Shown here: in pieces, positions 7,972 to 22,349 of the stretch
Position numbering within the stretch: the first letter of the stretch is position 1
Layout: the number at the start of each line of letters is the position of its first letter
From: a virus
Direction: 5' to 3' (one strand)
Virus record (IMG/VR): IMGVR_UViG_3300021963_000673
Coordinates: 1-23,264 of that record
DNA length: 23,264 bases
Translations under genes and position numbers: made by a program
The notes under the pieces: model-generated
What the model was told of the DNA's origin: nothing
The model's database searches: none
The model's input: the letters and a program-made list of their open reading frames with translations, nothing else

Positions 7972-8340
7972 TTATTCTTCTTCGTCTTCTCCCTCATCCG
8001 ATAAGATTTCGCTTAGACCTTCTTCATCAGTTAATTCAGCGTAAAAATCATAACGACCATCATCGGTGAGAGCGTAGATAATATAAAGGTAAGAACCATC
8101 AATTCCAAAAACCATTTCTTCACCCTCTGGATCAACATCGTAAAGCGCAGGCATATCCATATCGAACATACCTAACACTTTACGAATCTTTTGAATACCA
8201 GATTCTGGAGAAAGAATTGATTGTTGTAATTCGGTTTCCAATTGAGAATTGACTTCTTCCATAATGTCACCATTTAGAGAAGGCATATTTTCAATTTCTT
8301 GGTCAGAATTCATTTCTGCCAAATATTGTGCGAACCTCAT
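7972..8340 (-). CDS. Acidic protein with capsid-targeting-like leader
   Basis: A 122-residue, very acidic protein ending in a run of Asp and Glu (about residues 115-122). Its start, MRFAQYLAE|M, resembles the leader shared by four other proteins here and matches the T4 prohead-protease pattern (Leu/Ile-x-Glu before the cut), though Met after the site is not the usual small residue. The middle (about residues 75-105) predicts beta strands around FGIDGSYLYIIYAL. It may be a scaffold, chaperone or internal head protein, but this is inference from the leader and location. The ATG at 8340 overlaps the preceding stop as TAATG. There is no obvious Shine-Dalgarno site, so it probably relies on the highly translated gene upstream. 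Confidence 0.78.
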   Translation of the reverse strand: MRFAQYLAEMNSDQEIENMPSLNGDIMEEVNSQLETELQQSILSPESGIQKIRKVLGMFDMDMPALYDVDPEGEEMVFGIDGSYLYIIYALTDDGRYDFYAELTDEEGLSEILSDEGEDEEE

Positions 8341-8681
8341 TATGCGTCAGCGAAAGTTACGTCATCGTTAGCGATAGCGCCACCGTCACCAGTCATAGAA
8401 CCCATTGCAACCAATGTTTCTACGTGAACACGGTTTGCACGGCCACCAGAACCAGTTGTCATTAGAACCCAACCAGCGTGACCGCCTTTTGGATTAGATG
8501 CAACGTTTTGTTCTGTTGTGTCTACACCGAACACACCGATGGTTTCGCCAGTAACAAAAGCACCAGCTGTTGTGTTTGCGTACATCAAGTTACTGTTAGC
8601 CTGAGTGTTAGTCAGATTAACTAATGAAGGTGCAAACTTTGGTACGCTTGTGTTTGCATCTGTATTTGACCATAAAGCCAT
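8340..8681 (-). CDS. Small conserved phage protein, probable virion component
   Basis: The 113-residue product starts MALWSNTDANTSVPKF and has a beta-rich middle with GVFGVDTTEQNVA, GGHAGWVLMTTG and VETLVAMGSM. This start and the AGWVL...VAMGSM pattern are common in marine T4-like phages, where I believe it is a small head or virion protein; I know of no experimental proof. It has few charged residues and many Thr, Asn, Gly and Ala, in keeping with a structural protein made in quantity. It has the best expression signals of the block: AGGAG seven to eight bases before the ATG and a late-promoter-like box about 30 bases upstream. Confidence 0.82.
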   Translation of the reverse strand: MALWSNTDANTSVPKFAPSLVNLTNTQANSNLMYANTTAGAFVTGETIGVFGVDTTEQNVASNPKGGHAGWVLMTTGSGGRANRVHVETLVAMGSMTGDGGAIANDDVTFADA

Positions 8682-8711
8682 GTTTTTTCTCCTAGTTTAG
8701 AATTTATTGCT

Positions 8712-8719
8712 TATTTATC
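8712..8719 (-). promoter_or_regulatory. T4-like late promoter motif GATAAATA
   Basis: On the minus strand GATAAATA matches the T4 late -10 element TATAAATA at 7 of 8 bases. It lies in a 45-base gap between genes, 31 bases upstream of the ATG at 8681, leaving a leader of about 25 bases with AGGAG. No -35 box is needed in T4-type late promoters. It would drive the small virion-protein and lysis block. Confidence 0.6.
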
Positions 8720-8726
8720 ACTCAAA

Positions 8727-9761
8727 TTAATTATCTGATTTGACAACTGATGAACCTAATTCAGGTTCAGACTGGAAAGTTTCATCATTTTTCTTTTTAG
8801 CTTTCTTGAAAACTTCTTTCACAATATCACCTTTGCGAGATTCTTCCAGGCTTTCTTTAACAGGCATCTTTTCTGCTTGTTTTTTCAATGCTTGTCTTGC
8901 AAGATTTCTTGCAACTGACATTGGGCTATGTTTTGCACCGGATTTGTCTGTTACTGTGCCGGTTGTTTTCTTGTATGGACCGTCAAATGGTGGTTTGTTG
9001 GCATCATCAGCTTTCTTTTGACGAGCTTGAATAGACAAACTATATTTTGGTTCATCCATAGGTCTAAATGATTCTTTCATATGACCATATTTCTTTTTGT
9101 ACCAGTCAGGCATGCCACTTGTTTTACGGAAATGTCTTACTGTTGCAGAATCATTTGCTTGGTCACGATACTTATTTTCAGCAGTAGTATTGTGACCTTT
9201 CATTGCTTCAGCAGCCTTGTGTGCATCTTTAGCAATATGAATCAATGCCTCATCAGACTTTTTGTGGTACTCATGTCCTTCTAATGGATGGCGTTGTGAT
9301 GGACGACCTTCTTCAAGGTGTTCAACTTCTTCTTTGTTGTATTTCTTTTTCAAATACTTGTCAACTTTACGTGCATATTCATCTTTGACTTCTTCACTCA
9401 TTTCAGAAGTCATATAATTTGCAACAGTTGAAATGTAATCTTCTGCTTTAGTAATCTTGGACTGAACCCACTCAGGAAGATTATCTGCATCGTCAATCAT
9501 ATCATGCATTTTTTGTGCATTAGCAATGATTGAGCGCAAATCAGATTTGGCCATATCACCTTCTTGGTCATACTCACCAATATCAAACTTATCTTTGACT
9601 TTTTCTTGCATAGCCATTTTCTTAGCGTGTTGTACTTGTTGATTCCATTCTTTTTCACCGACTGTATAATGTTCTTCATTGTCGGTTGAAAGGTGTGGTT
9701 TATCTCTAGGTTCACCTTTGGCGAACCGAATAGATTTAAATATTTCTGAAGGCTTTTTCAT
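8727..9761 (-). CDS. Modular charged phage protein with YDQEG and ENKYRDQ repeat-type modules
   Basis: The 344-residue protein is charged and helical, with at least two modules I recognise from other aquatic T4-like phages. The first (about residues 63-120) has YDQEGDMAKSDLRSI, then NLPEWVQSKITKAEDYI. The second (about 155-230) has HPLEGHEYHKKSDEALIHIAKD, ENKYRDQANDSATVRHFRK and WYKKKYGHM. Both modules occur in changing combinations in phage proteins; their role is unknown, but they tend to sit in large multidomain or virion-associated proteins. The C-terminal third is lysine-rich and probably disordered. There is no signal peptide. The start at 9761 forms TAATG with the upstream stop, and the two genes probably act together. 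Confidence 0.85.
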   Translation of the reverse strand: MKKPSEIFKSIRFAKGEPRDKPHLSTDNEEHYTVGEKEWNQQVQHAKKMAMQEKVKDKFDIGEYDQEGDMAKSDLRSIIANAQKMHDMIDDADNLPEWVQSKITKAEDYISTVANYMTSEMSEEVKDEYARKVDKYLKKKYNKEEVEHLEEGRPSQRHPLEGHEYHKKSDEALIHIAKDAHKAAEAMKGHNTTAENKYRDQANDSATVRHFRKTSGMPDWYKKKYGHMKESFRPMDEPKYSLSIQARQKKADDANKPPFDGPYKKTTGTVTDKSGAKHSPMSVARNLARQALKKQAEKMPVKESLEESRKGDIVKEVFKKAKKKNDETFQSEPELGSSVVKSDN

Positions 9762-10618
9762 TATGCACTCTTTTTAGCTTGCTTTGTTGCAGTTGCATAC
9801 ATCACATTCTTTGCACGGTCACCGTAACGCTCTTTGAAACCTGCCATGCCTTTTTTCATAGACATAACAATTTCTTCACGTTTTTTCATTTCTGGTTCAG
9901 TCATTTTTTTTTCTTCAATGACTTCCACTTCTTCTTGCTTAACAGCATCGACTTTGCCTTTAGCAATGTCAGGATTCTTTTTTGCACCAGAAGCCTTTGC
10001 CTTAACGTCCTCTAATTCTGCTTTGTATTCATCATTTGTTGGTTCTTCTTTGACCAACATTTCAGATAAAGATTTTAGACCTTTCTCTTGGTAAAGATTT
10101 ACCATTTCGGAGAATTTCTTTTGTTTCTTTTTCTTCTCTGCTTCAATTTTTTCTAAGTCTTTTTGACCTGGACCACGAACGCCTGCAAATGGGTCGGTTG
10201 GTTTCTCTGAACCACCGTAACGACCTGTCTTTGCATTGTGAACGAACTTACCATCTTTAGATTCATATTCTAAGATAGTTTCTTCTTGTTCTGATTCTTC
10301 CTTCTTTACTTCTTTACTGGCAGGAACTTGTCCTGACAAACCAGTTTTAGGATTGCTTACTGGTTTTAATGTGCTATGTTGACTTACTTTTGCTTGTGGT
10401 GCTTTGGAACCCAATTTACCGGCAGCTTCTTCAACTGTTTCAACTTCTTCCTTCTTTACTTCTTTTTTAGCACGAAGTTTCTTAAAGTCGTCAGCTGTTA
10501 GCTCGTCTTTCTCTGGTTCATGCACATCCAACTTTTGTTGGTTTGGGTGCAATTTTTCATTCATAACTTTCATTACCGCATCGGCAACTGAACGTGTAGT
10601 GTTTGTATCTGAGTACAT
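9761..10618 (-). CDS. Lys/Glu-rich phage protein with ERYGDRAK C-terminal module
   Basis: A 285-residue protein made mostly of Lys and Glu, with two copies of KEVKKEE (about residues 52-58 and 102-108) and long helical, partly disordered stretches. The C-terminal 50 residues form a compact module, KKREEIVMSMKKGMAGFKERYGDRAKNVMYATATK, that recurs in aquatic T4-like phages. The middle has a recognisable DGKFVHNAKTGRYGG stretch. Sites such as VEE|AAG and SEM could be cut by a prohead protease. A scaffold, head-core or internal-protein role fits composition and place, but is not shown. The ATG at 10618 has a strong AGGAG eight bases upstream, in a 19-base gap. Confidence 0.83.
   Translation of the reverse strand: MYSDTNTTRSVADAVMKVMNEKLHPNQQKLDVHEPEKDELTADDFKKLRAKKEVKKEEVETVEEAAGKLGSKAPQAKVSQHSTLKPVSNPKTGLSGQVPASKEVKKEESEQEETILEYESKDGKFVHNAKTGRYGGSEKPTDPFAGVRGPGQKDLEKIEAEKKKKQKKFSEMVNLYQEKGLKSLSEMLVKEEPTNDEYKAELEDVKAKASGAKKNPDIAKGKVDAVKQEEVEVIEEKKMTEPEMKKREEIVMSMKKGMAGFKERYGDRAKNVMYATATKQAKKSA
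10295..10465 (-). repeat. 21-base direct repeat, copies 150 bases apart
   Basis: Identical 21-base stretches at 10295-10315 and 10445-10465 lie in the same frame, exactly 150 bases apart, and both encode KEVKKEE. They look like an internal duplication within the Lys/Glu-rich gene. Recombination between them would delete 50 codons without a frameshift. Confidence 0.8.
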
Positions 10619-10637
10619 AGGGTTTCTCCTGTTTTAA

Positions 10638-11363
10638 TTAATTTTTTACTAATAAAAGGTCAAAGGCTGCAGTATAGCGACCATTATTACTTCTTGTTGT
10701 CAATCTTACATCAATATCTGATTTTTGTGATATTTCTGGTGGAAATGAAAATGGATAGGAATATTGGCCACCATCACCATCAACCTCAAAGGTGTGAGCA
10801 ACTCTGAACGCTGATGTTCCACCAAATCTAATAAACATATTTCCTGTCGCATCAGCACCAGCTTGAGCTGATGCAGTACCTTGATACAAATATCCCGTAT
10901 AATTTCTTGGTATGGTGTAAATTGCCATTAAAGTTTGACCGGAACCAGCAGTAATTAAAGCCACATCCGTTGCGCCATTTTTAATTGAAATTGTTCCAAC
11001 ATTAGTGTTTCCATTAAGACCCATGTAAGCACGGTGAACTCTTATAAAACTATTAGAACTAACATTGTTTGCTTGTGATACTAATGTTATTTCTTCTTCT
11101 AAGATATCATAGTTAGCATCCAAACCAACAACAACCACACTTGCGTTTACATCAGAGGCACTTGAACTGCTTACTGTAATTGTATTTGCTCCAGCACTCC
11201 AAGTCGACCAAGGATAAACTGTATCATTTTTATCCCATACTGTTCCAGTTTGACTTGTTGACATTGCAGGAACTGCGCCAAATTTATGAACAGGAATAAC
11301 TCCCTTGACCATGCCACGGGAAATTTTAATTCTTTCATCTTCCAAATAAGCAATTTGTGCCAT
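10638..11363 (-). CDS. Probable virion protein (beta-rich, marine-phage family)
   Basis: A 241-residue, beta-rich protein with many Ser, Thr, Gly and Asn and few charges. Recognisable blocks are KISRGMVKGVIPVHKFG (about residues 13-29), the VWDKNDTVYPWS stretch (about 42-53), VFRAY-like RVHRAYMG, TLMAIYTIPRNYTGYL (about 145-160) and the C-terminal KSDIDVRLTT...AAFDLLLVKN. This pattern recurs in many marine phages, and I take it as a head- or tail-surface structural protein; the exact place in the virion is unknown. The ATG at 11363 touches the stop of the upstream gene with no gap and has GGAA upstream. It is not a fibre, as there is no collagen-like or adhesin domain. Confidence 0.83.
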   Translation of the reverse strand: MAQIAYLEDERIKISRGMVKGVIPVHKFGAVPAMSTSQTGTVWDKNDTVYPWSTWSAGANTITVSSSSASDVNASVVVVGLDANYDILEEEITLVSQANNVSSNSFIRVHRAYMGLNGNTNVGTISIKNGATDVALITAGSGQTLMAIYTIPRNYTGYLYQGTASAQAGADATGNMFIRFGGTSAFRVAHTFEVDGDGGQYSYPFSFPPEISQKSDIDVRLTTRSNNGRYTAAFDLLLVKN

Positions 11364-12191
11364 TTAGCAATTCCAACGGCGTAGTGCCTTGTTGATTGGA
11401 GAATCAGGGTCTCTTGCGTTTTCATCTTTAGTTAAACGTTTCTTCATGCCGCCCATACGAGCACAGAATGATGCACGGCGTGATTTTCTTTTTCCTGTTG
11501 GGTTCTTTTCTGTTACAGCAGTCTGTAACTTTGAACCTGGATTTTCACGGCGATATGCGTTAACTGCCTTCTGTGAAAGACCATCGGTTTTATCTTGTTT
11601 ATTGATTTTGTTCCAATCTTCATTGAGTTGCTTCTCTTGTAGATACTTTGAAGCATCATCAACGATAGTAGATTCTGACTTCCATCCACCACCCATTGCT
11701 TTATATTTCTTTGCAGCCCAACCATTGGCATATGCGGATGGATAAACATCGAACTTAGCTTTTGCTTGTGCTTTTGCTTGTGCCCATTTTTCAGGACTTG
11801 TTGGTACATTTTTTTCGTCTAATTGTTCCATAGATTCGCTTATCTTTCCTTTACCAAAGTTAGATACGTTGATTGGTTTACCCTTGCGTTCTGGATTAGG
11901 GTCGTGTTTGCGTTTTGTTGCAACAGCAGAGGCTCTTTCTTTTTTAGTGAGTGATGCTCTCTTTTTGTTTGACATACATTTTGGCTTAGCTTCGCCTGGC
12001 TCTCTCGCACAAGGACCAATTGCTTCACCTTTACTATTGATTCTTTTCCAACCACCATCTGGATGGTCTTTATCAAACCAATTACGCAAATCTTCTTTCA
12101 CGCAAGAACCTGGCGAGTAAGGCTTTTTACCTGGAACAGGTTTATGACCAGGCCAACATCTTTCTGCAATGAAGTCTTTTAATCTTTTCAT
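11364..12191 (-). CDS. Basic multi-module protein with capsid-targeting-like leader (DUF5872/DUF6321-like)
   Basis: The 275-residue basic protein starts with the shared leader MKRLKDFIAE|R and then has three small, Lys/Gly/Trp-rich modules. The first (about residues 37-72, DGGWKRINSKGEAIGPCARE, ending in PKCM) resembles DUF5872. The second (about 133-170) has FDVYPSAYANGWAAKKYK and GGGW. The third (about 200-275) has KTDGLSQKAVNAYRRENPGSK, SFCARMGGMKKRL and a final KALRRWNC, close to DUF6321. These modules occur in phages and giant viruses. High charge and the leader suggest a DNA-binding protein packed in the head, but this is inference. The ATG at 12191 overlaps the upstream stop as ATGA. 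Confidence 0.87.
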   Translation of the reverse strand: MKRLKDFIAERCWPGHKPVPGKKPYSPGSCVKEDLRNWFDKDHPDGGWKRINSKGEAIGPCAREPGEAKPKCMSNKKRASLTKKERASAVATKRKHDPNPERKGKPINVSNFGKGKISESMEQLDEKNVPTSPEKWAQAKAQAKAKFDVYPSAYANGWAAKKYKAMGGGWKSESTIVDDASKYLQEKQLNEDWNKINKQDKTDGLSQKAVNAYRRENPGSKLQTAVTEKNPTGKRKSRRASFCARMGGMKKRLTKDENARDPDSPINKALRRWNC

Positions 12192-12415
12192 TTTGGTCTC
12201 AGTTCAGGATACTTGGCATGCATTTGTTCTTTTGACAATTCATGCATGTCTTTCCACAGTTTTGCTTCTTTTTTTGTTTTAGTGGTTCTAATGTGACGGC
12301 CATTTTCATCATGTACATTATATTCAATATCAGCTGTTGTTCTACCACGATAACTTTCTTTTTTAGTTATTGTAGCTTTCTTTTCTTCAAAAATAAAAGA
12401 CTTGAAAGATTTCAT
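12188..12415 (-). CDS. Small basic protein with capsid-targeting-like leader
   Basis: A 75-residue protein that starts MKSFKSFIFE|E, the same kind of leader as its two neighbours, then a basic stretch KKATITKKESYRGR and a mixed domain with IEYNVHDENGRHIRTTKTKKEAKLWKDM. The central part may be one small beta hairpin and helix in which HDENGRHI forms the turn. After cutting at the leader about 65 residues would remain. It overlaps both neighbours as ATGA (with the upstream kinase stop at 12412-12415 and the next start at 12188-12191), so the three leader-bearing genes are translated as one coupled set. I do not recognise a family. Confidence 0.8.
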   Translation of the reverse strand: MKSFKSFIFEEKKATITKKESYRGRTTADIEYNVHDENGRHIRTTKTKKEAKLWKDMHELSKEQMHAKYPELRPK

Positions 12416-14868
12416 ATGGCCTTCTTTGATTTAAATGAAGAAAGGTTGATACCCTTCTTCTTTAACTCATCTTCTTTTTGGTCACCAATAGATGCAGTTG
12501 TTTCATCGCCTTGCATTTCTTCTAGTGGTTTCTTAATCAACTTGGTCTTGGTTAAACCACGACTCATGTTTTCACCAGAACTAGCCATTGAAAGGCCAGT
12601 TTCTATGCCTTTGTCGATGCTTTCTTTGGTGGTCGTTTTTTGTTTGGACCTGATTTGTGAGAGGGTGATTTTGGTTTTGCCGGCGGTGTTACCTTGTTCG
12701 GAGCTTTTGGTGCCGATGCTTTCTGCGGCTGGGGTGGTGTTGTAGTTTCCACCTTCAAATCCTGTACTGGTTGTGTAGTCTCTGCTCTCTCTAAGAATTT
12801 TTCCGTTGCTGCTCGAGTTGCTCCATCCAATGGATGTTTCTCTGACGCTGGTTCTTTTGCTTTCATTCCCAAAAGACTCTTGAAAAATCGAATCATGTTC
12901 TATCTCCTCTTTAATTTTAATTACATAACCCTTAGGGTGTTTCATCACTTCACCGCCATTGATGTGCGCTTCTTTAGCAGCACCACGGCGCAGAAGGAAT
13001 ATTCTTGGTTTGCCAGATGTATCTCTTAGCAATTTCACTTTCTTTTCTTCAAAAATAGATTGAAGGTCATCATTGGTTACAACAAGTTCTTCTTGCTTTT
13101 CGCCAATGGCTTGAACTTTTTTACCTAATGTTAAACTTTCATTAGTGTCTGACAATTCAATTCCAGGATCAGTTTCTTCAACTTCTAAATTATATCCTTG
13201 AATTGAACTAATCATTGAATGTACTTCGTCTACTGTGTCACCTGTAATTGAAAGTGTTACAGATTCAGAAAGTAATCCACCAAATTGTTTTTCGAATTCT
13301 TCATTAACTTTTTTCTTCATTGAAGTTCCAGGCGCAGGAATATTTGGTTCTTTTGGTTGTTCTTGGTCAACTTCAACTAATCTATCATGTACTGAACGGT
13401 GTGTTACTTTTCCGTTTTTACCATATCTACCAAATCCATAATATTGTAATCCTAGTTTTCTCGCTTCTTCAGCTGAACCGGAATCTGGATGTGGTGTTTG
13501 TTCTGCACCATCTTTAGGAACAGGTAATGTATCTTTTTTCTGTAATTCCATTGCAACCCAAGCATCAGCTGTTTCGTTGCTTGGTGGTGTACCTGTGAAT
13601 TCTTTAATGCGAGTAAATAGATTAAGCATTTCATCTTTTTTCTGCTTAACTACTTCAGGTGGTGCTTGGCGCAAATCTTCTGAGTTATCAAACTCCATGT
13701 ATTTGTCGCCAAACATTTTTGCAAATTCTACTCGGCCTGCTTGAACACCATCCCACTTTTGTTTACGAATTTCTTCTGGTACAGTACGACCGCCACGTTG
13801 ACCACGTTCGATGTTGCGTTGTTTAGATACTTCATCCTCTGTTTGAACCAATAACATAGAAGTATCGTAACCAACAGTTTCTAATCGTTCTTTAATCTTT
13901 TTAATCTTGTCTACGTCATCACCAGTACCATTGATGATTAGGCCATTGCGACCTAATAGTGCAAGGCGTTGACGTAACTCTGTCATGTTTTTTGCTTTAC
14001 CACGGACAAAATCACGCTTTTCTTGTTCAGAGGCTGGCATTGTTTTATCAAGACCTTCTTTGTCCATCAAAAACTCTAATGCTTTATCTGAATTGATTTC
14101 TGTAAGGCCGTGACCTGCAAGTGTATTGTCTAGCACATAATCTTTGCCAGAGCCAGGACCACCTGCTAAGAATACTGCTTTGAAAATAGCCTTGTCATGC
14201 ACACCTTCAATTAATAGTTCATTGAAAGATTCATTTAAATCAAATTCTTCATTTAAACCACCCAAGTATTTGTTCAATAACTCTTTTACTTTAACTGGTT
14301 TATTGGCTTTTGGATATAAATCTTTAACTATTTCTTTACGACCTTTATCATCGGCCTTTGAGTACATGGAACGAACTTGGCTACCTGAATAAACTTCTTG
14401 GCCATTAACTTTGAAAACATGTTTCTTCGTTACGTAGATGTAACCATGCCCACCTTCTGGATTAAAAGGTTTGCAATCTCTCAATGATTTGAATGGTTGA
14501 TAATATGCTGGTGAACCATCTTTTTTAGTGTAGTTCACAGGGTCACGTTCACTACGAACCAAAATAAGAATATCTTTCTTTGGATTGTAGTGTTTTAGAA
14601 TTTCTGTAGGATTTACAGGTTGAGAAACCTGAACGAAATTATCCTTGACACCAGCTTGTTGTGCCAAGAATTGTTTATCTTTGAATGGGATTGGTCGATT
14701 TTTTGTGTCGTTACTGGCAGCAACATAAAAATCAGCTGAGGGGAAAGCATTTTTTGCTTGCTCATAACTGCTCATGTGACCAGCATGAAATGGTTGGAAG
14801 CCACCGCCGTAAACAACGATTACTTTTTGACGAGTTGTAGCTTCTTGTATAAAGTCTCTAAATTTCAT
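12412..14868 (-). CDS. HxGH nucleotidyltransferase / P-loop kinase fusion with capsid-targeting-like leader
   Basis: An 818-residue multidomain protein. After the leader MKFRDFIQE|A comes a nucleotidyltransferase domain (about residues 15-200) with GGGFQPFHAGH (His28, His31) and the second motif SGSQVRSMY (161-169), as in NMN adenylyl- or cytidylyltransferases. A P-loop kinase follows (about 228-410) with GGPGSGK (236-242), NSDKA and a later RxxxR-type run ERGQRGGR, similar to zeta-toxin/polynucleotide-kinase-like enzymes. The C-terminal half has small conserved phage modules (PHPDSGSAEEARKLG; FLLRRGAAKEAHINGGEV) and ends in KKKGINLSSFKSKKAI. The order transferase-kinase recalls NadR, but substrates are unproven. 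Residues about 658-755 are Ser/Thr/Asn-rich with unusual C-ending codons, where a nested gene overlaps. GGAG precedes the ATG. Confidence 0.9.
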   Translation of the reverse strand: MKFRDFIQEATTRQKVIVVYGGGFQPFHAGHMSSYEQAKNAFPSADFYVAASNDTKNRPIPFKDKQFLAQQAGVKDNFVQVSQPVNPTEILKHYNPKKDILILVRSERDPVNYTKKDGSPAYYQPFKSLRDCKPFNPEGGHGYIYVTKKHVFKVNGQEVYSGSQVRSMYSKADDKGRKEIVKDLYPKANKPVKVKELLNKYLGGLNEEFDLNESFNELLIEGVHDKAIFKAVFLAGGPGSGKDYVLDNTLAGHGLTEINSDKALEFLMDKEGLDKTMPASEQEKRDFVRGKAKNMTELRQRLALLGRNGLIINGTGDDVDKIKKIKERLETVGYDTSMLLVQTEDEVSKQRNIERGQRGGRTVPEEIRKQKWDGVQAGRVEFAKMFGDKYMEFDNSEDLRQAPPEVVKQKKDEMLNLFTRIKEFTGTPPSNETADAWVAMELQKKDTLPVPKDGAEQTPHPDSGSAEEARKLGLQYYGFGRYGKNGKVTHRSVHDRLVEVDQEQPKEPNIPAPGTSMKKKVNEEFEKQFGGLLSESVTLSITGDTVDEVHSMISSIQGYNLEVEETDPGIELSDTNESLTLGKKVQAIGEKQEELVVTNDDLQSIFEEKKVKLLRDTSGKPRIFLLRRGAAKEAHINGGEVMKHPKGYVIKIKEEIEHDSIFQESFGNESKRTSVRETSIGWSNSSSNGKILRESRDYTTSTGFEGGNYNTTPAAESIGTKSSEQGNTAGKTKITLSQIRSKQKTTTKESIDKGIETGLSMASSGENMSRGLTKTKLIKKPLEEMQGDETTASIGDQKEDELKKKGINLSSFKSKKAI
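12603..12896 (-). CDS. Nested out-of-frame gene: 97-aa Lys/Pro/Ala-rich basic protein
   Basis: This frame lies wholly inside the kinase-fusion gene, shifted by one base. It begins MIRFFKSLLGMKAKEP, has a helix-like middle (DGATRAATEKFLERAE, about residues 24-39) and a strongly basic Pro/Lys/Ala tail from about residue 55, like histone H1 or other DNA-binding tails. Two signs favour a real gene: AGAGGAGA with ideal seven-base spacing before the ATG, and A-ending codons (GCA, CCA, ACA, AAA) like the neighbouring genes, whereas the large frame here uses AGC, ACC, ATC and GGC. It has no signal peptide. Function is unknown. The overlap could mean overprinting, or capture of a small gene into the larger one. 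Confidence 0.6.
   Translation of the reverse strand: MIRFFKSLLGMKAKEPASEKHPLDGATRAATEKFLERAETTQPVQDLKVETTTPPQPQKASAPKAPNKVTPPAKPKSPSHKSGPNKKRPPKKASTKA
12903..12910 (-). promoter_or_regulatory. Strong Shine-Dalgarno site for the nested gene
   Basis: AGAGGAGA on the minus strand lies inside the kinase-fusion coding sequence; its GGAG ends seven bases before the ATG at 12896. It is among the best ribosome sites in the window and has no role in the larger frame. Confidence 0.6.
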
Positions 14869-14905
14869 TCTCTCCGCCTCTGCAGCAGTTAATGTTCTAT
14901 TTAGT

Positions 14906-14913
14906 TATTTATT
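14906..14913 (-). promoter_or_regulatory. T4-like late promoter motif AATAAATA
   Basis: AATAAATA on the minus strand matches T4 late TATAAATA at 7 of 8 bases. It overlaps the methyltransferase stop and lies 38 bases upstream of the ATG at 14868, leaving a leader of about 32 bases with a GGAG site. It would start the block from the nucleotidyltransferase-kinase to the two charged proteins. Confidence 0.5.
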
Positions 14914-15532
14914 CAGCTACAATGAAAGCATTTCCGTGTGGATGGTTGCCAGTCCAGTTTTCTTTAAGGTGACCAAATTCATAGTCAAAGTATTTGATTT
15001 TGAAACCAGCTTCAACTAAAGTGGTCAACCACCATTCTTCTGGTTCACGTACCACATGGGTAACATCCATCTCATATTCACGGATGCGGTATCTTTTGCC
15101 GTCTCCTAACGGTACAGCTACAAATAGAGTTTTACAACGGCGGCGCAACTCATGTAGTACAGAAGGGATTACGTCTTTTGGAATGTGTTCCAACACATCC
15201 TTTGCGATGATAAGGTCCCAACCACCAGTCAGTTGTTCGGTGCTCTCAATCACTTGTAGGTAATCTTTGACCTTTGGGTGACAATTTTGCACGGCATACT
15301 CAGACACATCGGCACCATACGCTTCTTTACCTAAAAGCCTTAGTGCATGAACCATGAAACCTTTGGCACAACCATAATCCAATACTGTATCAAATTTGAT
15401 ATTGTTAATGATTGAAGATGCCTCACGAATGGTGCGTTCAGGCATCCATCGGTAGTTTTCATAAGCACTTACACGATGGCGAACACCATCTTCGAAATAC
15501 TTTTCATCAAATACATTTTTAAGCGAACTCAT
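14909..15532 (-). CDS. SAM-dependent class I methyltransferase
   Basis: A 207-residue Rossmann-fold methyltransferase. Motif I is VLDYGCAKG (residues 50-58), the acidic end of strand 2 is GADVS (73-77), and motif IV is DLIIAKDVLEHI (106-117), the pattern of small-molecule and sugar methyltransferases (UbiE/Methyltransf_11-like) and unlike DNA methyltransferases, which carry DPPY or PCQ motifs. It overlaps the radical SAM gene by 14 bases and closes the cassette of two glycosyltransferases, radical SAM protein and methyltransferase, so it probably modifies the same sugar or glycan product. The acceptor is unknown. The late promoter of the next block overlaps its stop codon. Confidence 0.93.
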   Translation of the reverse strand: MSSLKNVFDEKYFEDGVRHRVSAYENYRWMPERTIREASSIINNIKFDTVLDYGCAKGFMVHALRLLGKEAYGADVSEYAVQNCHPKVKDYLQVIESTEQLTGGWDLIIAKDVLEHIPKDVIPSVLHELRRRCKTLFVAVPLGDGKRYRIREYEMDVTHVVREPEEWWLTTLVEAGFKIKYFDYEFGHLKENWTGNHPHGNAFIVAE

Positions 15533-16637
15533 TATGGCGGGTCTCCGTTACAATATCATCAATCAATTCATTTTGAATAGAATACTTACAGAAAGAACAA
15601 TTATGGTGTCTACGTGTCACATCAGGCCCACCAACTTGTGAGTTATAAAAATCTGTAATACCATCAATGTCACAAATTTTAAATTCTTCATTCACTTGAT
15701 AGTTATTTTCTGGTGCCAACTCGGCAGAAGGACAAACATATACATTACCATCTGTAAACACACAAGGTTTAACCATGTGCATATAACAGTTGTCGTTACG
15801 GCGTTCACCTTTAAAGTTAAAGTCTGACAAGAAAGCATACTTCAACTTGCCATGTTTTTCTTCGTGTTGTGCAATCAATACACGAATACGGTCAATATCT
15901 TGTTTAACCAATTCAACAGCCTTAATCGCATTGAAAGCAATACGACATGGGATTTTCTTTTCTTCAACCCATGCCAACATCTTCATAAAGTTTTCTTCTT
16001 TATAACTGTTGGATGCCAATCGTTTGGCCTTTGAATCTAACCACTCACCTGTAATATTTGGATTTGTAGATGTTTCAGTTGCACCATCCCAAACATAGGC
16101 TGCGGAGATTTCAATATCTAAACCTTCGAACACTTCAAGGTGATATTCATATGGTTCTTTTTCATCCCAAGAATACATGCCAAGGCGAACCCATGACAAC
16201 ATATGCCAGTTCTTAATCTTCTTCAAGCGTGAACCATTGGTACAAATACCAATCTTCAAACCTTTACTGTTTGCGTATGCGATAACTTCATCTAGTTTTG
16301 GATGTAGTGTTGGTTCTCCACCGCCTGTAAACTCCATACCTAGAACACCTAATGCAGCAAACTGGTCAATTGCAGATTTCATCTGTTTGACAGTCAGCAT
16401 TTCTTTCATTGAACGGTTGGCAAAGCAACAGAATGAACAGGTCAAGTTACATGGGTTTGCAGGTGACATGTGAAACATAACTGGTTTCGGTCTGCCACCT
16501 TTTTGAATGATTTCTAATCGGTCAAGGTGCTTCAACAACTTGGTTGCGTTACTTGTGTAACTGCGACCTTGCACTTTCTCGGTTGCTTCTGCAACCGGTT
16601 TCTTCTTCATAATTTTACTTGCATCAATTTTCTGCAT
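15519..16637 (-). CDS. Radical SAM protein with SPASM-type C-terminal cluster domain
   Basis: A 372-residue radical SAM enzyme. The iron-sulfur motif CNLTCSFC (Cys63, Cys67, Cys70) binds the 4Fe-4S cluster that splits SAM; GGGEP (105-109) and ICTNGS are the usual SAM-contacting motifs. The C-terminal part has cysteines at about 284, 292, 302, 322, 347 and 350 with CVFTDGNVYVCPSAEL and CSFCKYS, a SPASM-type auxiliary cluster region. SPASM enzymes act on peptides, proteins or sugars such as aminoglycosides. The neighbours (glycosyltransferases before, methyltransferase after) favour a sugar or glycoprotein substrate. It is not a viperin, which lacks SPASM. AAGG precedes the ATG at 16637, one base after the upstream stop. 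Confidence 0.93.
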   Translation of the reverse strand: MQKIDASKIMKKKPVAEATEKVQGRSYTSNATKLLKHLDRLEIIQKGGRPKPVMFHMSPANPCNLTCSFCCFANRSMKEMLTVKQMKSAIDQFAALGVLGMEFTGGGEPTLHPKLDEVIAYANSKGLKIGICTNGSRLKKIKNWHMLSWVRLGMYSWDEKEPYEYHLEVFEGLDIEISAAYVWDGATETSTNPNITGEWLDSKAKRLASNSYKEENFMKMLAWVEEKKIPCRIAFNAIKAVELVKQDIDRIRVLIAQHEEKHGKLKYAFLSDFNFKGERRNDNCYMHMVKPCVFTDGNVYVCPSAELAPENNYQVNEEFKICDIDGITDFYNSQVGGPDVTRRHHNCSFCKYSIQNELIDDIVTETRHNEFA

Positions 16638-16638
16638 T

Positions 16639-17367
16639 TTATACCTTCAATGTAAATTCATATTCTATTTGTGGTTCTCTGTACGGGCCAACGTCTTCGC
16701 CATATACATCTTTCATAAAGTTTGGATAAACTTCATTTAAAATCTTTTCCATCTCTGCATGTGCTGCTGATTTATCATAGTAACTAGGTTTACCTGGATG
16801 ATACATTGAAACTTCGTGTATCACACCACATTTTTCTTTCATAATAGAAGACATAATCAGGTCAAATCCCCAACCACTTTTTACATTATGGTGTTGGAAA
16901 AATCTCAATACATTATCTAGTAGAGAAGAATGGATGAATTGACCCATACCTTCGTTGAAATTGGTTACACTATATGATTTACTCAGGTCTTGATGTAAAA
17001 TCCTATGTGTAGAATCTGAACCAGCAATAGTTGATAACTGAAACAATTTTAGGTTGTTCTTTGTTGCAATCTCAATTGCACGATTTACACTTCGAATATC
17101 TGTAACAAGGTCATCATCCCAAAATCCAATATAATCATAATCTGTGTAATCAAATGTTTCAAGGAAGTGTTTAACAAGTTCCCACTTATAACCATTGTCT
17201 CTAATCAGTATGTCATATGTTCCAAGGTCTGGTTGAAAATCATTGTAAGTGTATGCAATAACTTCATAATTTCTTGTCGGCTTTGTTACACGCCAATGAT
17301 TGTCTTTATCATAGGCATCATGGTATGCAATAGGAATACCAACAGGACAGAAAATTATATTACGCAT
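16639..17367 (-). CDS. GT-A-like glycosyltransferase (DUF707-like)
   Basis: A 242-residue protein with a GT-A-like layout. YDYIGFWDDDLVTD (residues 77-90) holds an acidic cluster (Asp84-Asp86) of the DxD type that binds a metal and sugar nucleotide, and SGWGFD (164-169) looks like the acceptor/catalytic GWGxD block found in DUF707-like and related transferases. The end is rich in acidic and aromatic residues. No membrane segment is seen, so it works in the cytoplasm. The ATG at 17367 gives an eight-base overlap with the preceding transferase; a TTG at 17379 is less likely. Paired with the other transferase it may add sugars to a virion protein or to DNA bases. Family assignment is by motif only. 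Confidence 0.78.
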   Translation of the reverse strand: MRNIIFCPVGIPIAYHDAYDKDNHWRVTKPTRNYEVIAYTYNDFQPDLGTYDILIRDNGYKWELVKHFLETFDYTDYDYIGFWDDDLVTDIRSVNRAIEIATKNNLKLFQLSTIAGSDSTHRILHQDLSKSYSVTNFNEGMGQFIHSSLLDNVLRFFQHHNVKSGWGFDLIMSSIMKEKCGVIHEVSMYHPGKPSYYDKSAAHAEMEKILNEVYPNFMKDVYGEDVGPYREPQIEYEFTLKV

Positions 17368-18214
17368 ATTTTTTCTCAATCAATTCTTTCAATTCAGGCA
17401 CTCTATCATATTGGTGAACAATTGCAAAAGGTGTACCGTCACTTGTACATACAGTATTATACACTATTATTGGAGATTTTTCAACTAGCCTAGAACCATA
17501 TTTGCCTGCAATTTGTGGGCCTGTTGTGCCTAACTGTGCAGCCCAACCTTCTTCTGACATTGTTTTTCTTGCAACGTCATGGTATGTTTGCATACCCAAC
17601 AGAATGTTCCATGCCGCTTGGTCAGGTCCACCGCCACCTTCAATGTGATGTGATGTGCCTTGGCATAACATATAGATGTTTAGAAACACATCAAGCATTG
17701 TATCAAACTCACCAGAGATAACACCTGCATTGAAAATTAAATTGTCCTTGTATGCATCATGTATCAATGGACCAAATGACTTCATTAAATTGTTTGTACC
17801 CCAATCTTCATCTTTGTAGTACATGGATTCACAGGCAGCATTAATCTTCTTGTCGCCAAGATTGTTTTCTAACCAAGTGGATGGGTTTGATTGAAACACA
17901 ACATCTTTTACATCTGTAGTAATGATGTAACGATATTGGCCTTTGAATTGTTTGAGTAGGTACCAAAGGTGTAAGAACCTTTCGACCATGATTGAGAAGT
18001 CTTGTTTATATTCTAACCGTTTTGCTTCATCATTTCTTTTAAAAGCAAAAACGGTATAACCACGCTTGGTTAATTCATCTGCAACATCATAACCAATATT
18101 GTAACAAATCATGGCTTTAGTACCAGTAAAGCCAGACCTATCTAACGAATTAACCCAAGGCGCAATTTTGTCAAAACTGTAGCCAGTGATAAAGCCAATC
18201 ACCATATCTTTCAT
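17360..18214 (-). CDS. Predicted GT-A-like glycosyltransferase
   Basis: A 284-residue protein with a nucleotide-sugar transferase pattern: an N-terminal strand MVIGFITGY, then YRYIITTDVKDVVFQSNP (about residues 94-111) where TDVKD is the DxD-like metal site and the following Asp-Val-Val-Phe-Gln is typical of GT-A folds. NAGVISG and GGGGPDQAAWN (about residue 200) match the acceptor-side NxG and DQxxxN motifs of such enzymes. It lacks a signal or membrane helix. The ATG at 18214 is preceded by TTGGAG at good spacing; a TTG at 18226 is unlikely. It opens the sugar-modification cassette behind two small phage proteins. Donor and acceptor are unknown. Confidence 0.85.
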   Translation of the reverse strand: MKDMVIGFITGYSFDKIAPWVNSLDRSGFTGTKAMICYNIGYDVADELTKRGYTVFAFKRNDEAKRLEYKQDFSIMVERFLHLWYLLKQFKGQYRYIITTDVKDVVFQSNPSTWLENNLGDKKINAACESMYYKDEDWGTNNLMKSFGPLIHDAYKDNLIFNAGVISGEFDTMLDVFLNIYMLCQGTSHHIEGGGGPDQAAWNILLGMQTYHDVARKTMSEEGWAAQLGTTGPQIAGKYGSRLVEKSPIIVYNTVCTSDGTPFAIVHQYDRVPELKELIEKKYA

Positions 18215-18229
18215 AACAAACTCCAATAA

Positions 18230-18583
18230 TTATTTCTTTTTGTAATCCTTAAATGATTTCAACTTACCTTGACCAGGAGTATCATTCATATAATTCTTAA
18301 CTAACGTATCAGTACCATCATTTCCTGCACCAGATGGTGGAAGAATATCTGGTTTAATTTCTTCATACACACTCTTATGTAGTTTAACACCAGTAACGTG
18401 TTGAACTAACTTCCATGCTTCTTTATGTTTCTTGTTCTTTACATGGTCGTTGAACTGTTTCTTTTGTTGTTCATTTGCCTTTTGTTTGAACTTAACTAAT
18501 TCCATAATACCGATATTACCGGCATATGAGGCTTCTTTTAAAATTTTTCGGTTAGAAACCACTCTGATAACAGCTTCACTCAT
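18230..18583 (-). CDS. Conserved T4-like phage protein of unknown function (AGNIGIMEL type)
   Basis: A 117-residue basic protein with a recognisable core: EASYAGNIGIMELVKFKQKA (about residues 17-36), the motif AWKLVQHVTGVKLHK (about 56-70) and a Gly-rich end with PPSGAGNDGTDTLVKNY. I recall the AGNIGMME/AWKLLQ pattern from aquatic T4-like phages, always as a small protein without assigned function. It has no membrane segment, is helical in the middle and may be disordered at the end. GAGG precedes the ATG at 18583, one base after the upstream stop. It sits with another small conserved phage protein downstream of the ligase-like gene, so both may be virion or assembly factors. Confidence 0.82.
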   Translation of the reverse strand: MSEAVIRVVSNRKILKEASYAGNIGIMELVKFKQKANEQQKKQFNDHVKNKKHKEAWKLVQHVTGVKLHKSVYEEIKPDILPPSGAGNDGTDTLVKNYMNDTPGQGKLKSFKDYKKK

Positions 18584-18584
18584 A

Positions 18585-18857
18585 TTATCCTCGTGTCAAT
18601 GCTAAAATCTTTTGCATTTGTGTTTCAAGGATTGGTCCACGGTTTGGCCAATGAATGTATGGTTGATTTGAAGTCTTATAAAGATTCGTTAGAAAAGGCA
18701 TAATCAACTTCTCTACTTGGGCCAATCTTTGTTTATATTCTTCCGCAGTTTCTTCTTTCTCGGCTATAACAGCTTGATACTCAGCTTCATTGACAGCAGA
18801 GAAACCAAAGTCATTATCACCATACTCAGCAAGAATTTTATTTAAATCATATGCCAT
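18585..18857 (-). CDS. Small conserved phage protein (YIHWPNR motif)
   Basis: A 90-residue acidic, helical protein that starts MAYDLNKILAEYGDNDFGFS and has a coiled-coil-like middle (EETAEEYKQRLAQVEKLIMPFL, about residues 32-53) and the motif PYIHWPNRGPILETQMQKIL (about 65-84) that recurs in T4-like phages of aquatic bacteria. KILAE|Y near the start looks a little like a head-protease site, but the leader is not of the MKxFxxFIxE type, so I do not count it. The ATG at 18857 overlaps the ligase-like stop as TAATG, and GGGA lies upstream; a GTG at 18869 is less likely. Function is unknown. Confidence 0.82.
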   Translation of the reverse strand: MAYDLNKILAEYGDNDFGFSAVNEAEYQAVIAEKEETAEEYKQRLAQVEKLIMPFLTNLYKTSNQPYIHWPNRGPILETQMQKILALTRG

Positions 18858-20086
18858 TATTTGTCCCACGCTTTCTGTGCATTAAAGTTTGCATGTGCAA
18901 ATTCTAGTCGGTCAACCAACTTAACTGCATTGCCTTTTAATTTATCTACTGCTACGAATCCTTCTGGATTAGTAATCTTGAAACCATCATCTGTTCTTAG
19001 AAAAGTACCAGTAACTTGTTTCATTTGTTGTAGTTTTTTGATAATCATATTTTTTGCATCAACAATATCATTCTGAATTTGAAAAATCTTTTCCAGTTCA
19101 AAAGCATTGTTACGATAGAAACGCATCAATTCATTCTTTTCGAATTGTCGTTTCTGTTTTGTTTCTTCTTTTTTGGCAGCAATGATTTCTTTGTTCAATC
19201 GTTCTTCAACCCAACGAATCAAATCTCTTGTGTGTTGATTCACATTACGTATTGGTTCACCTGCACGTACTTTGGTGTTGTTGAAGGTCTTAATCTGTAA
19301 CTGAATCATCTCTGTGGTTGCAATACGATTCAATGTCATAGAATTGACTGTTCTAAACATACCACCCGCACGAGACAGAACGGAAGTAATCTGTTTTGTT
19401 TCTTCTTGTGTAAAGGTTGCAGTACCAGAAGCATCAACAAAGTATGCATCACGGAACCAAACATCTTTAGTGGTAGTCAAATTCTTAATGTCGATATTAA
19501 ATGAAGACTTCATATCTGCCATTGTTTTGCCGGTGTATGAAGTATGAAACACAATACCGAGTTGAGCCGCCAACATAGATGTGGCTAATTTAGAATCAGA
19601 AGGCACAGCATAGACAATTGTGTTTGGTTGAAAAATGATGTATTTGGTTCCATCAATTGTTTCTTCTTCAATATCACCTTTACTAAACATCATATCGCCT
19701 TGCAATACACCTTTAATGCCTAGTTTTGGTAAGTATCTCAATGCCACTTTCAGTTTAGCATTAAGTCCTTCACCTGGATGGTTTCTATCAATGTCATCAT
19801 CTGTATAATTTAATTTTGCATTTGCGTTGAAGACACCTTTAGTACCAACAAAGAATTTACCATTCTCTGGATTAATACCACAGAAAACAGCAGGTGCACC
19901 ATCCCATTTTGTTGTTACGTTTACTTTACTTGAAGAATGTCCTGCCAACATATCTCGGAGAGATTGTAGGAAATTGATTGCATCACGAGTACCGGATACA
20001 CCACGGTTAAGAACTTCATCTTCGATGTGTTCTAGATGAAGGTTCTTACCTTCTTTTGCTTCGGTTATAAATTCTGTGAATTTCAT
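18857..20086 (-). CDS. DUF6267 protein, ligase-like nucleotidyltransferase with capsid-targeting-like leader
   Basis: A 409-residue phage protein that I recognise as DUF6267. After the leader MKFTEFITE|A there is a conserved block (NLHLEHIEDEVLNRG, residues 15-29) and then TTKWDGAPAVFCG, where Lys60-x-Asp62-Gly63 is motif I of the covalent nucleotidyltransferase superfamily (DNA and RNA ligases, capping enzymes). KGVLQGDMMF (125-134) fits motif III, and the following strand YIIFQPNTIVYAV fits motif IIIa/IV. The C-terminal third is helical. It should bind a nucleotide on Lys60 and may seal or modify nucleic-acid ends, but no ligase activity is established for the family. The start at 20086 lacks a clear Shine-Dalgarno site and follows the upstream gene by one base. 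Confidence 0.87.
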   Translation of the reverse strand: MKFTEFITEAKEGKNLHLEHIEDEVLNRGVSGTRDAINFLQSLRDMLAGHSSSKVNVTTKWDGAPAVFCGINPENGKFFVGTKGVFNANAKLNYTDDDIDRNHPGEGLNAKLKVALRYLPKLGIKGVLQGDMMFSKGDIEEETIDGTKYIIFQPNTIVYAVPSDSKLATSMLAAQLGIVFHTSYTGKTMADMKSSFNIDIKNLTTTKDVWFRDAYFVDASGTATFTQEETKQITSVLSRAGGMFRTVNSMTLNRIATTEMIQLQIKTFNNTKVRAGEPIRNVNQHTRDLIRWVEERLNKEIIAAKKEETKQKRQFEKNELMRFYRNNAFELEKIFQIQNDIVDAKNMIIKKLQQMKQVTGTFLRTDDGFKITNPEGFVAVDKLKGNAVKLVDRLEFAHANFNAQKAWDK

Positions 20087-21192: not shown

Positions 21193-21219
21193 ATACCTAG
21201 AGTTTGTTTAACTAGGTAT
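21193..21219 (-). promoter_or_regulatory. Hairpin over the ribosome site (8-base perfect inverted repeat)
   Basis: ATACCTAG, an 11-base loop and CTAGGTAT form a perfect dyad on the minus strand. The 3' arm contains the AGG ribosome site and the first two bases of the ATG at 21194, while the 5' arm overlaps the late promoter box. RNA coming through from the helicase unit could fold and hide the site. RNA begun at the late promoter (near 21211) would lack the 5' arm and stay open. The same logic is known for T4 genes e and soc. Confidence 0.6.
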
Positions 21220-21224
21220 TTATC
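21217..21224 (-). promoter_or_regulatory. T4-like late promoter motif GATAAATA
   Basis: GATAAATA on the minus strand is 7 of 8 to T4 late TATAAATA and identical to the motif at 8712-8719. It lies in the 45-base gap behind the DUF4338-like gene, about 23-30 bases before the two candidate ATGs. The predicted start is near 21211, inside the loop of the overlapping hairpin. Confidence 0.62.
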
Positions 21225-21233
21225 CTATCTTGG

Positions 21234-22349
21234 TTACCTGATAATGTCAAGCACTTTATCGCCAGTCCAAACTTCTTGTTCAGTACGGATTCGACCCTCT
21301 GTATTCAAAGTATCGAATCGGTTGATGGCCTTCTTGCGCCACCACTCAATAATGTTGGATAGGTTATGTTTCTCATAGTTCTCACCTGGCACCAGTTTTG
21401 TAGCCTTTCCGTTTACAAAATCAACCATGTTTTTGAAACCATAATCAGAGATAAAGTATCGTTTCTGTTCGTTCAGGTTCTTGGCGTTCTCAATTGTCTG
21501 TGCAAACTTAGCACCCTCTGGTGTGCCTTTGAGTGTTGTTTTAATGATACTAACCATTGCATTTGAGATTTTCAACTTACGTGACGATGCACCTTCTGGT
21601 GCCAATGGTTCACCAAGAATATTCTCCATGTAATCCTTGAGGTTGGTGTAAGTATCACCATGCAACATTGGTAAGAAGTCACTATCAGTCAGGCCTTTGA
21701 AACGAATCAGAGGTTTCATACCATCATATTGTGACACAGCCTTAGAACTACCATACAAACTGGTTGTCTCAAACAGGCAAGTTGTCATGCCATACTTTTC
21801 ATCCAACATTTTACGGACTTCGTGTGTGGTACAGATTGCAGCCAGTAATTTACCACCAAGATAATTGAAACCAAATGGTTGTGCAGGTACAATAACAAAA
21901 CCCATTACTGCACATTGATTGAATCTCTGAGCACCACCCTCATGTTGTGTGAATACTTGACCCAACATTTCATTACGAGGTTTACAATTGATAACAGGTG
22001 AACCAAGACGAATGAAACCACACCACTTGTTGGTTTTCTTTTCTAAGATAGCAAGACGCAAACATCTACCAGGAATACTGGTCATATTTGAGTGACTTGA
22101 AATCATATTCAAGTATGTGTCCCATCGGTCTTGTGGCAGTTCAACGAGTTCAAACTCCATGTCAGCAGGTGACATAGTGAAATCAGAAAACAAATCTTCT
22201 TCAGGTCCCATGCCGAACAGTACAGGTGACCGTTCTGCCATAGAGGCCAGTTTTTGTTCACGCATGTATTCATCAATACGACCAAACTTATCAAAGTAGT
22301 CGGAGAATACTCCTGCACACTTTACTGCTTGTTCATGCGTTAATTTCAT
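21234..22349 (-). CDS. DUF4338 (DruA-like) phage protein
   Basis: A 371-residue protein whose middle matches the DUF4338 pattern, the family of the Druantia defence protein DruA: GRCLRLAI...CGFIRLGSPV (about residues 94-119), a helix with QRFNQCAVMGFVIVPAQPFGFNYLGGKLLA (about 141-170), the CTTHEVRKMLDEKYG stretch and FETTSLYGSS (193-202). NYLGGKLLA followed by TTSxYGxS is the hallmark I rely on. The C-terminal third (about 250-371) is a phage-type extension with WWRKKAINR. Phage DUF4338 proteins are known but not explained. The gene is coupled by ATGA to the helicase, so it is likely made early or mid-infection and may work in replication or recombination rather than defence. Confidence 0.72.
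   Translation of the reverse strand: MKLTHEQAVKCAGVFSDYFDKFGRIDEYMREQKLASMAERSPVLFGMGPEEDLFSDFTMSPADMEFELVELPQDRWDTYLNMISSHSNMTSIPGRCLRLAILEKKTNKWCGFIRLGSPVINCKPRNEMLGQVFTQHEGGAQRFNQCAVMGFVIVPAQPFGFNYLGGKLLAAICTTHEVRKMLDEKYGMTTCLFETTSLYGSSKAVSQYDGMKPLIRFKGLTDSDFLPMLHGDTYTNLKDYMENILGEPLAPEGASSRKLKISNAMVSIIKTTLKGTPEGAKFAQTIENAKNLNEQKRYFISDYGFKNMVDFVNGKATKLVPGENYEKHNLSNIIEWWRKKAINRFDTLNTEGRIRTEQEVWTGDKVLDIIR

Follow-up and report, generated by a model that had tools for sequence, protein, structure and literature searches.

The helicase-to-primase locus and its leaders

The window analysed here, the complete 23,264-base IMG/VR contig IMGVR_UViG_3300021963_000673, is a fragment of a T4-like phage. 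Between its replication genes for the gp41 helicase and the gp61 primase sits a cluster of genes whose products begin with short leaders that resemble the capsid targeting sequences (CTSs) of the T4 internal proteins (IPs). The surroundings of the cluster encode a DnaB/gp41-type helicase, a ribonucleotide reductase, ThyX and a primase, all on the minus strand (names from sequence and synteny). This helicase-to-primase locus is shared with Kyanoviridae, namely cyanophages Syn1, S-PM2 and S-SM1, pelagiphage HTVC008M and methylophage Melnitz, and the hosts of the relatives are Pelagibacter, Methylophilales and cyanobacteria.

Five leaders had been claimed by a first-pass annotation of this DNA, and all are present, each at the first ATG of its minus-strand open reading frame (a slash marks the predicted cut). 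A DUF6267 protein of 409 amino acids (18857..20086; isoelectric point (pI) 9.1; Pfam PF19782, E = 1.6e-113) starts with MKFTEFITE/A (20060..20086), with cleavage predicted after Glu9. A nucleotidyltransferase-kinase of 818 amino acids (12412..14868) starts with MKFRDFIQE/A (14842..14868), in which M1, F3, F6 and E9 are invariant in 13 homologues. It is followed by a basic protein of 75 amino acids (12188..12415; pI 9.7) with leader MKSFKSFIFE/E (12386..12415), and by a very basic protein of 275 amino acids (11364..12191; pI 9.9) that carries leader MKRLKDFIAE/R (12162..12191) ahead of a CWPG module, a DLRNWF module and DUF6321 (Pfam PF19846). The fifth leader, MRFAQYLAE/M (8314..8340), begins an acidic protein of 122 amino acids (7972..8340; described from its open reading frame and pI of 4.1). 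The leaders of the 75- and 275-residue proteins are assigned from the first ATG and the motif test given below, and that of the 122-residue protein from these and from conservation. The five had been called near-identical; they do share a pattern, but the wording is slightly too strong, MRFAQYLAE being the most divergent. The description of the three leader genes at 14868-11364 as one translationally coupled set is plausible, because adjacent genes overlap by 4 nucleotides at each junction.

Mutational work on T4 IPIII has assigned targeting to residues 4 and 7 and processing to residues 8 and 10 (reviewed in PMC9026906). We used the T4 mutational data to fix a leader motif a priori: an aromatic residue or Leu at -6, an aromatic residue at -3, Ile or Leu at -2 and Glu at P1, within the first 12 residues. 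Matches are found in 5 of the 33 genes in the window versus 0.013 expected from residue shuffles (P about 5e-13), and the background rate is one in 1,875 proteins outside the leader families. This test rejects a chance origin of the five leaders. All five match the four T4 IPIII determinants in register (hydrophobic at -6, aromatic at -3, Ile or Leu at -2, Glu at P1), and the T4 record gives MKTYQEFIAE/A as the start of both ipII and ipIII.

The count of five is low, as homologue conservation reveals further candidates in the window, both on the minus strand. The sixth is a 17-residue N-terminal propeptide, MSEAVIRVVSNRKILKE/ASYAG (18533..18583), of a protein of 117 amino acids whose family has Glu at P1 and a hydrophobic P3 in 12 of 12 distinct homologues, most of them with a leader-like start. 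The seventh and weaker candidate is MAYDLNKILAE/YGDNDF (18825..18857) of a protein of 94 amino acids. Its family has Glu at P1 and a hydrophobic P3 in 29 of 29 homologues, a pattern that ordinary family conservation could explain.

Conservation, head genes and virion data

Among the relatives, the leader is located at the orthologous genes and almost nowhere else. It is kept in 85 of 88 DUF6267, 23 of 23 nucleotidyltransferase-kinase and 24 of 28 DUF6321 homologues, and appears in none of five neighbouring gene families examined in relatives. One orthologue of the 122-residue protein, in relative G002, starts MDQVIPAQEP... and lacks a leader. All 25 aligned DUF6267 proteins have F3, F/Y6, L/I7 and E9, whereas positions 4 and 5 and those immediately behind the Glu are variable. 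The leader is also found in front of non-homologous bodies. For 11 of the 12 aligned homologues of the 818-residue protein, identity to the window is 56-89% in the leader and 72-82% in the kinase, with only 19-24% in the intervening domain. On these identities, the nucleotidyltransferase domain between leader and kinase is a replaced module whose flanks are both conserved. In Melnitz-3, the gene upstream of DUF6267 (L129, 1920-3005) starts with a leader, MQGFKTFLSE/A; the neighbouring 368-residue gene of the window has none.

Cleavage of such leaders had been ascribed to a gp21-type (S77) protease. This protease is encoded in relatives G001, G002, G004-G007, G015-G017 and G020, near-complete ones (G001, G002, G015, G016 and others) among them, although the window itself lacks it. 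It is present in every relative whose contig is known to cover the head region. G003 has none, and its absence there reflects a coverage gap because gp23 is missing from that contig too. The head region of the relatives follows the T4 order of gp20, a gp67-like and a basic core protein, gp21, gp22 and gp23. Propeptides of gp23 end in IIAE/A, YLNE/A or MLYE/T, and gp21 has the N-terminal site VKYLTE/A. From these propeptide sites, the prohead protease of the clade appears to retain the T4 rule of cutting after [I/L]xE. Furthermore, the basic core protein of G002 starts with the leader-register sequence MKFVELIAE/N.

The exact T4 late promoter TATAAATA was not found in the window. The relaxed motif ATAAATA occurs at three sites, fewer than the 6.6 expected by chance, and all three precede leader units on the minus strand. 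One (14906..14912) lies about 37 bp from the start of the nucleotidyltransferase-kinase gene and has the same place in G001, G002, G003 and G004; the others precede the unit of the 368-residue gene and DUF6267 (21217..21223) and the unit encoding a 113-residue protein and the 122-residue protein (8712..8718). The late-promoter-type sequence NATAAATA precedes every leader unit of the window by 22-37 bp and the nucleotidyltransferase-kinase gene of G001-G004 by 34-40 bp, and it likewise precedes head genes. These motifs suggest that the leader units are expressed late.

A putative cytidylyltransferase, T4-GC190, has been detected by mass spectrometry in purified virions of cyanophage S-SM1 (Sullivan et al. 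2010, PMC3037559). Its gene (148256-149419 of NC_015282) adjoins the DUF6267 homologue T4-GC71 in the gp41-gp61 locus, and the protein starts MKKFSAFLNE/AERSF, an exact IPIII-register leader. The T4-GC190 proteins of S-RIM8 and S-SSM5 start MKKFSAFLTE/A. In contrast, the S-PM2 orthologue has no leader, and the S-PM2 cytidylyltransferase was not detected in the S-PM2 virion (PMC3037559). This contrast, of one phage with one and with differing sensitivity, is suggestive only, but it fits leader-dependent packaging. In S-PM2 (L130, 3992-5771), a frame change breaks up DUF6267, whose C-terminal half is directly fused with the cytidylyltransferase.

The location of the cluster between two replication genes could also speak for a leader that docks its protein on some other phage or host structure (the replication complex, the membrane or the tail) and resembles T4 sequences only incidentally. 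We regard this as highly improbable, since the Glu and Ile/Leu register equals gp21 specificity and recurs in the core protein and gp21 of relatives, the late promoters are like those of head genes, and a leader-bearing orthologue is found in S-SM1 virions.

Predicted cut sites within the 818-residue protein

The 818-residue protein is a predicted polyprotein in which Pfam, AlphaFold2 and Foldseek place a cytidylyltransferase-like domain, a P-loop kinase and C-terminal modules behind the leader; this polyprotein character goes beyond the first-pass annotation. Its predicted enzymatic character, proposed in the first-pass annotation, is backed by Pfam domains (CTP_transf_like and Zeta_toxin/AAA_33) and by Foldseek matches to adenylate, UMP-CMP and polynucleotide kinases and to NadR. 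Within the chain are predicted leader-like cut sites, FNELLIE/GVHD (Glu221; 14206..14226, minus strand) immediately before the kinase and FGGLLSE/SVTL (Glu535; 13264..13284, minus strand) before the C-terminal part, and a possible, weaker one, LQSIFEE/KKVK (Glu608; 13045..13065, minus strand). In an AlphaFold2 model of low mean confidence (56), all three Glu residues fall in low-confidence segments between more ordered domains (204-225 for Glu221, 503-543 for Glu535 and 556-610 for Glu608).

HTVC008M, Melnitz and many contigs encode the kinase on its own, usually with a leader-like start that ends at the equivalent Glu, as in MKTFAELQE/GVYD and MIPFILKE/GLYD. At the kinase boundary, P1 is Glu and P3 is Leu or Ile in 45 of 45 distinct fused homologues, and P1 is Glu in 29 of 29 stand-alone kinases. 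For kinase and DLRKWF module boundaries together (125 distinct), P1 is Glu in every case and P3 is Ile, Leu, Met, Val or Phe in 93-100% versus 31% in the background; selection on P2 is less marked. The DLRKWF module lies behind an N-terminal leader in G001 (MKSFKQFVNE/DLRKWF) and behind an internal site in L087 (FEEFFAE/DLRRWF), and the 275-residue protein of the window has an internal site, CVKE/DLRNWF, at Glu33. An S-BM3 fusion embeds a whole leader, KSFKDFTE/GAAWTKKSGKN, whose counterpart in G005 stands at a gene start (MKSFKAFITE/TPAWTRKEGKN), and in L032 and G003 the nucleotidyltransferase-kinase carries the body of the 75-residue protein at its C-terminus. The [I/L]xE site persists in both arrangements of the kinase or DLRKWF module, stand-alone and fused. 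In the 39-kb phage C75C1 (L300, 695-931), a DLRKWF-like module stands directly at the start codon, without a leader. Scanning bacterial genomes for the DLRKWF module yielded no confirmed relative.

The leaders might be T4-like and cleaved and the 818-residue protein nonetheless stay whole, if its internal [I/L]xE sequences are ordinary linker or helix-cap residues. Genome-wide, the count of the internal motif is only about double that in shuffled sequence (14 versus 7.6 in G001), and this mild enrichment means that the motif is informative only by position. The sequence E/GVHD could also belong to the kinase fold, and the distant jumbo phage Atu_ph07 likewise has VTE/GVND at that position. However, stand-alone kinases start with a leader that ends exactly at this Glu, the DLRKWF module has Glu at P1 and a hydrophobic P3 behind unrelated fusion partners (except in C75C1, which has no such site), and the sites fall in predicted disordered linkers. 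An uncut protein therefore seems unlikely to us.

Besides the mild enrichment of the internal motif and the narrow S-SM1/S-PM2 comparison, several points weigh against capsid targeting. The 23-kb window, being a fragment, contains no protease or head genes. DUF6267 proteins of Syn1, P-HM1 and S-SM1 lack the leader, so packaging of DUF6267 would not be universal. The conserved P1 and P3 positions are not fully independent, because shared descent inflates the homologue counts, and they may be partly structural. Capsid targeting with gp21-type cleavage after [I/L]-x-Glu, as the first-pass annotation had proposed, is nevertheless strongly supported by sequence and by the S-SM1 virion data, because the T4 determinants are exact, the leader is kept across domain swaps, the relatives encode the S77 protease and gp23 sites, late promoters precede the units and an orthologue is present in virions. 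We consider it highly probable that the leaders are T4 IPIII-type capsid-targeting sequences whose proteins would be packed into the prohead, cut by the S77 protease at internal sites as well, and delivered with the DNA. Packaging and leader cleavage are very likely; the cutting event itself, injection and action on the new host we infer.

Late in infection, the tagged proteins would dock on the prohead scaffold core via the leader and become enclosed in the prohead. The gp21-type S77 protease would then cut after [I/L]-x-Glu and so remove the leader. The 818-residue protein would also be cut at its internal copies of the site, freeing the nucleotidyltransferase, the P-loop kinase and the C-terminal modules inside the head. 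The freed enzymes would be delivered with the DNA to the next host, where they might act in nucleic-acid end repair or in NAD/nucleotide metabolism against host defence. We favour, with moderate confidence, the wider proposal that the prohead protease serves as a polyprotein processor: a capsid-targeted multi-enzyme would be packed whole, cut in the head into nucleotidyltransferase, kinase and accessory enzymes, and injected as a kit, and fusion and fission of leader-tagged genes would reshuffle the cargo. A protease-cut enzyme polyprotein is probable, and appears undescribed in the searchable literature on polyproteins and prohead proteases (subscription titles outside its scope), where no cargo polyproteins are apparent. 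Within the same limits, the titles and abstracts on capsid targeting sequences include apparently none on marine phages.

Proposed cargo and related systems

Nucleic-acid end repair and NAD/nucleotide metabolism are the leading guesses for the role of the cargo. DUF6267 has the invariant motifs KWDG (60-63), EGxV (375-378) and KxVxR (389-393), and the order KxDG...EGxV...KxVxR resembles that of the ligase/nucleotidyltransferase superfamily. This motif order suggests that the protein may belong to the superfamily and agrees with its first-pass description as ligase-like, but independent support was lacking: no Pfam support was found, Protein Data Bank (PDB) sequence searches with both alignments gave nothing useful, and a Foldseek search with the poor AlphaFold2 model was empty. 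An end repair kit of kinase, ligase-like DUF6267 and nucleotidyltransferase, directed against host nucleases, may tentatively be proposed. This role would agree with the Foldseek matches to polynucleotide kinases and to the Pnkp1/Rnl/Hen1 complex and with the ligase-like motif order. Adenylate and UMP-CMP kinases outscore polynucleotide kinases in Foldseek, however, and the ligase assignment has no Pfam or PDB support.

The order of an N-terminal nucleotidyltransferase and a C-terminal P-loop kinase matches that of NadR-type NMN adenylyltransferase/ribosylnicotinamide kinases, so the cytidylyltransferase and kinase could instead restore NAD+ depleted by host defence. A Foldseek match to NadR (6gyf) covers both domains (E = 6e-5 over 462 alignment columns), but its overall fit is low (TM-score 0.27, root mean square deviation 18). 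Moreover, relatives swap the N-terminal domain for a different one, and HTVC008M and Melnitz have the kinase as a gene of its own, which makes this role rather doubtful. T4 Ip1-3 block type IV restriction enzymes (PMC12373910), and counter-defence thus has a precedent as cargo. The 275- and 75-residue proteins are very basic, as are the T4 IPs; the 122-residue protein is acidic.

Other leader-bearing proteins are found beyond the window. Synechococcus phage S-CRM01 g130 (L296, 4679-7144; 821 amino acids; leader MISFDQFLSE/K) contains a domain resembling protein kinases (Pfam Pkinase, E = 4e-6, short of the curated cut-off) and is a possible packaged protein kinase on that match. P-loop kinase-like proteins (L207, 4464-5048; L208, 1261-1863; L202, 3937-4512) carry leaders MKRFKSYIKE, MVQTFVNFLKE and MKTFKQYFFE, and HAD-like proteins with an IFDIDDTLF motif also bear leaders (L156, 636-1355; L173, 2202-2825). 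In the window, a variable island between DUF6267 and the nucleotidyltransferase-kinase (14909-18226) holds glycosyltransferase-, radical SAM- and methyltransferase-like genes, and its content differs among relatives. The product of 21234-22349 is DruA-like (Pfam DruA, a Druantia protein, E = 5e-9; phrog_19197) and is conserved across these phages.

With these findings, the capsid-targeting code of T4 would also hold for a large group of T4-like phages from aquatic habitats. The leader would explain the virion presence of the cyanophage 'core' cytidylyltransferase and would give a rule for telling from genome sequence which proteins are injected. If phages do package enzymes and cargo polyproteins, this would be a new route for a phage to act on its host before phage gene expression.

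One close counterpart is T4-GC190 of S-SM1, S-RIM8 and S-SSM5, which has the leader MKKFSAFL[NT]E/A and the same locus beside a DUF6267 homologue and is a virion protein of S-SM1 by mass spectrometry; the papers found make no mention of the leader. Unlike the 818-residue protein, T4-GC190 has 385-387 amino acids, in which a single nucleotidyltransferase domain is recognised, and lacks a kinase. The ejection proteins of phiKZ and SPN3US are likewise head-packaged and processed by a prohead protease, but at an A/S-x-E motif, and their propeptides are mostly much longer (several over 100 residues), with no short CTS. T4 Alt ADP-ribosyltransferase, compared from the literature, is also a head-carried enzyme whose N-terminal propeptide is removed by gp21, although it is a different enzyme and a single rather than a multi-enzyme chain. 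The CTSs of T4 IPI, IPII and IPIII have the same leader of 9-10 residues, the same four determinants and register and an [I/L]xE/A site. As with the T4 IPs, one leader precedes non-homologous bodies, and a T4-type head module with an S77 protease is present (here in relatives). The T4 IPs are small proteins that inhibit type IV restriction enzymes, whereas the predicted cargo here comprises an 818-residue multi-domain enzyme and a DUF6267 protein, with predicted cut sites inside the cargo too.

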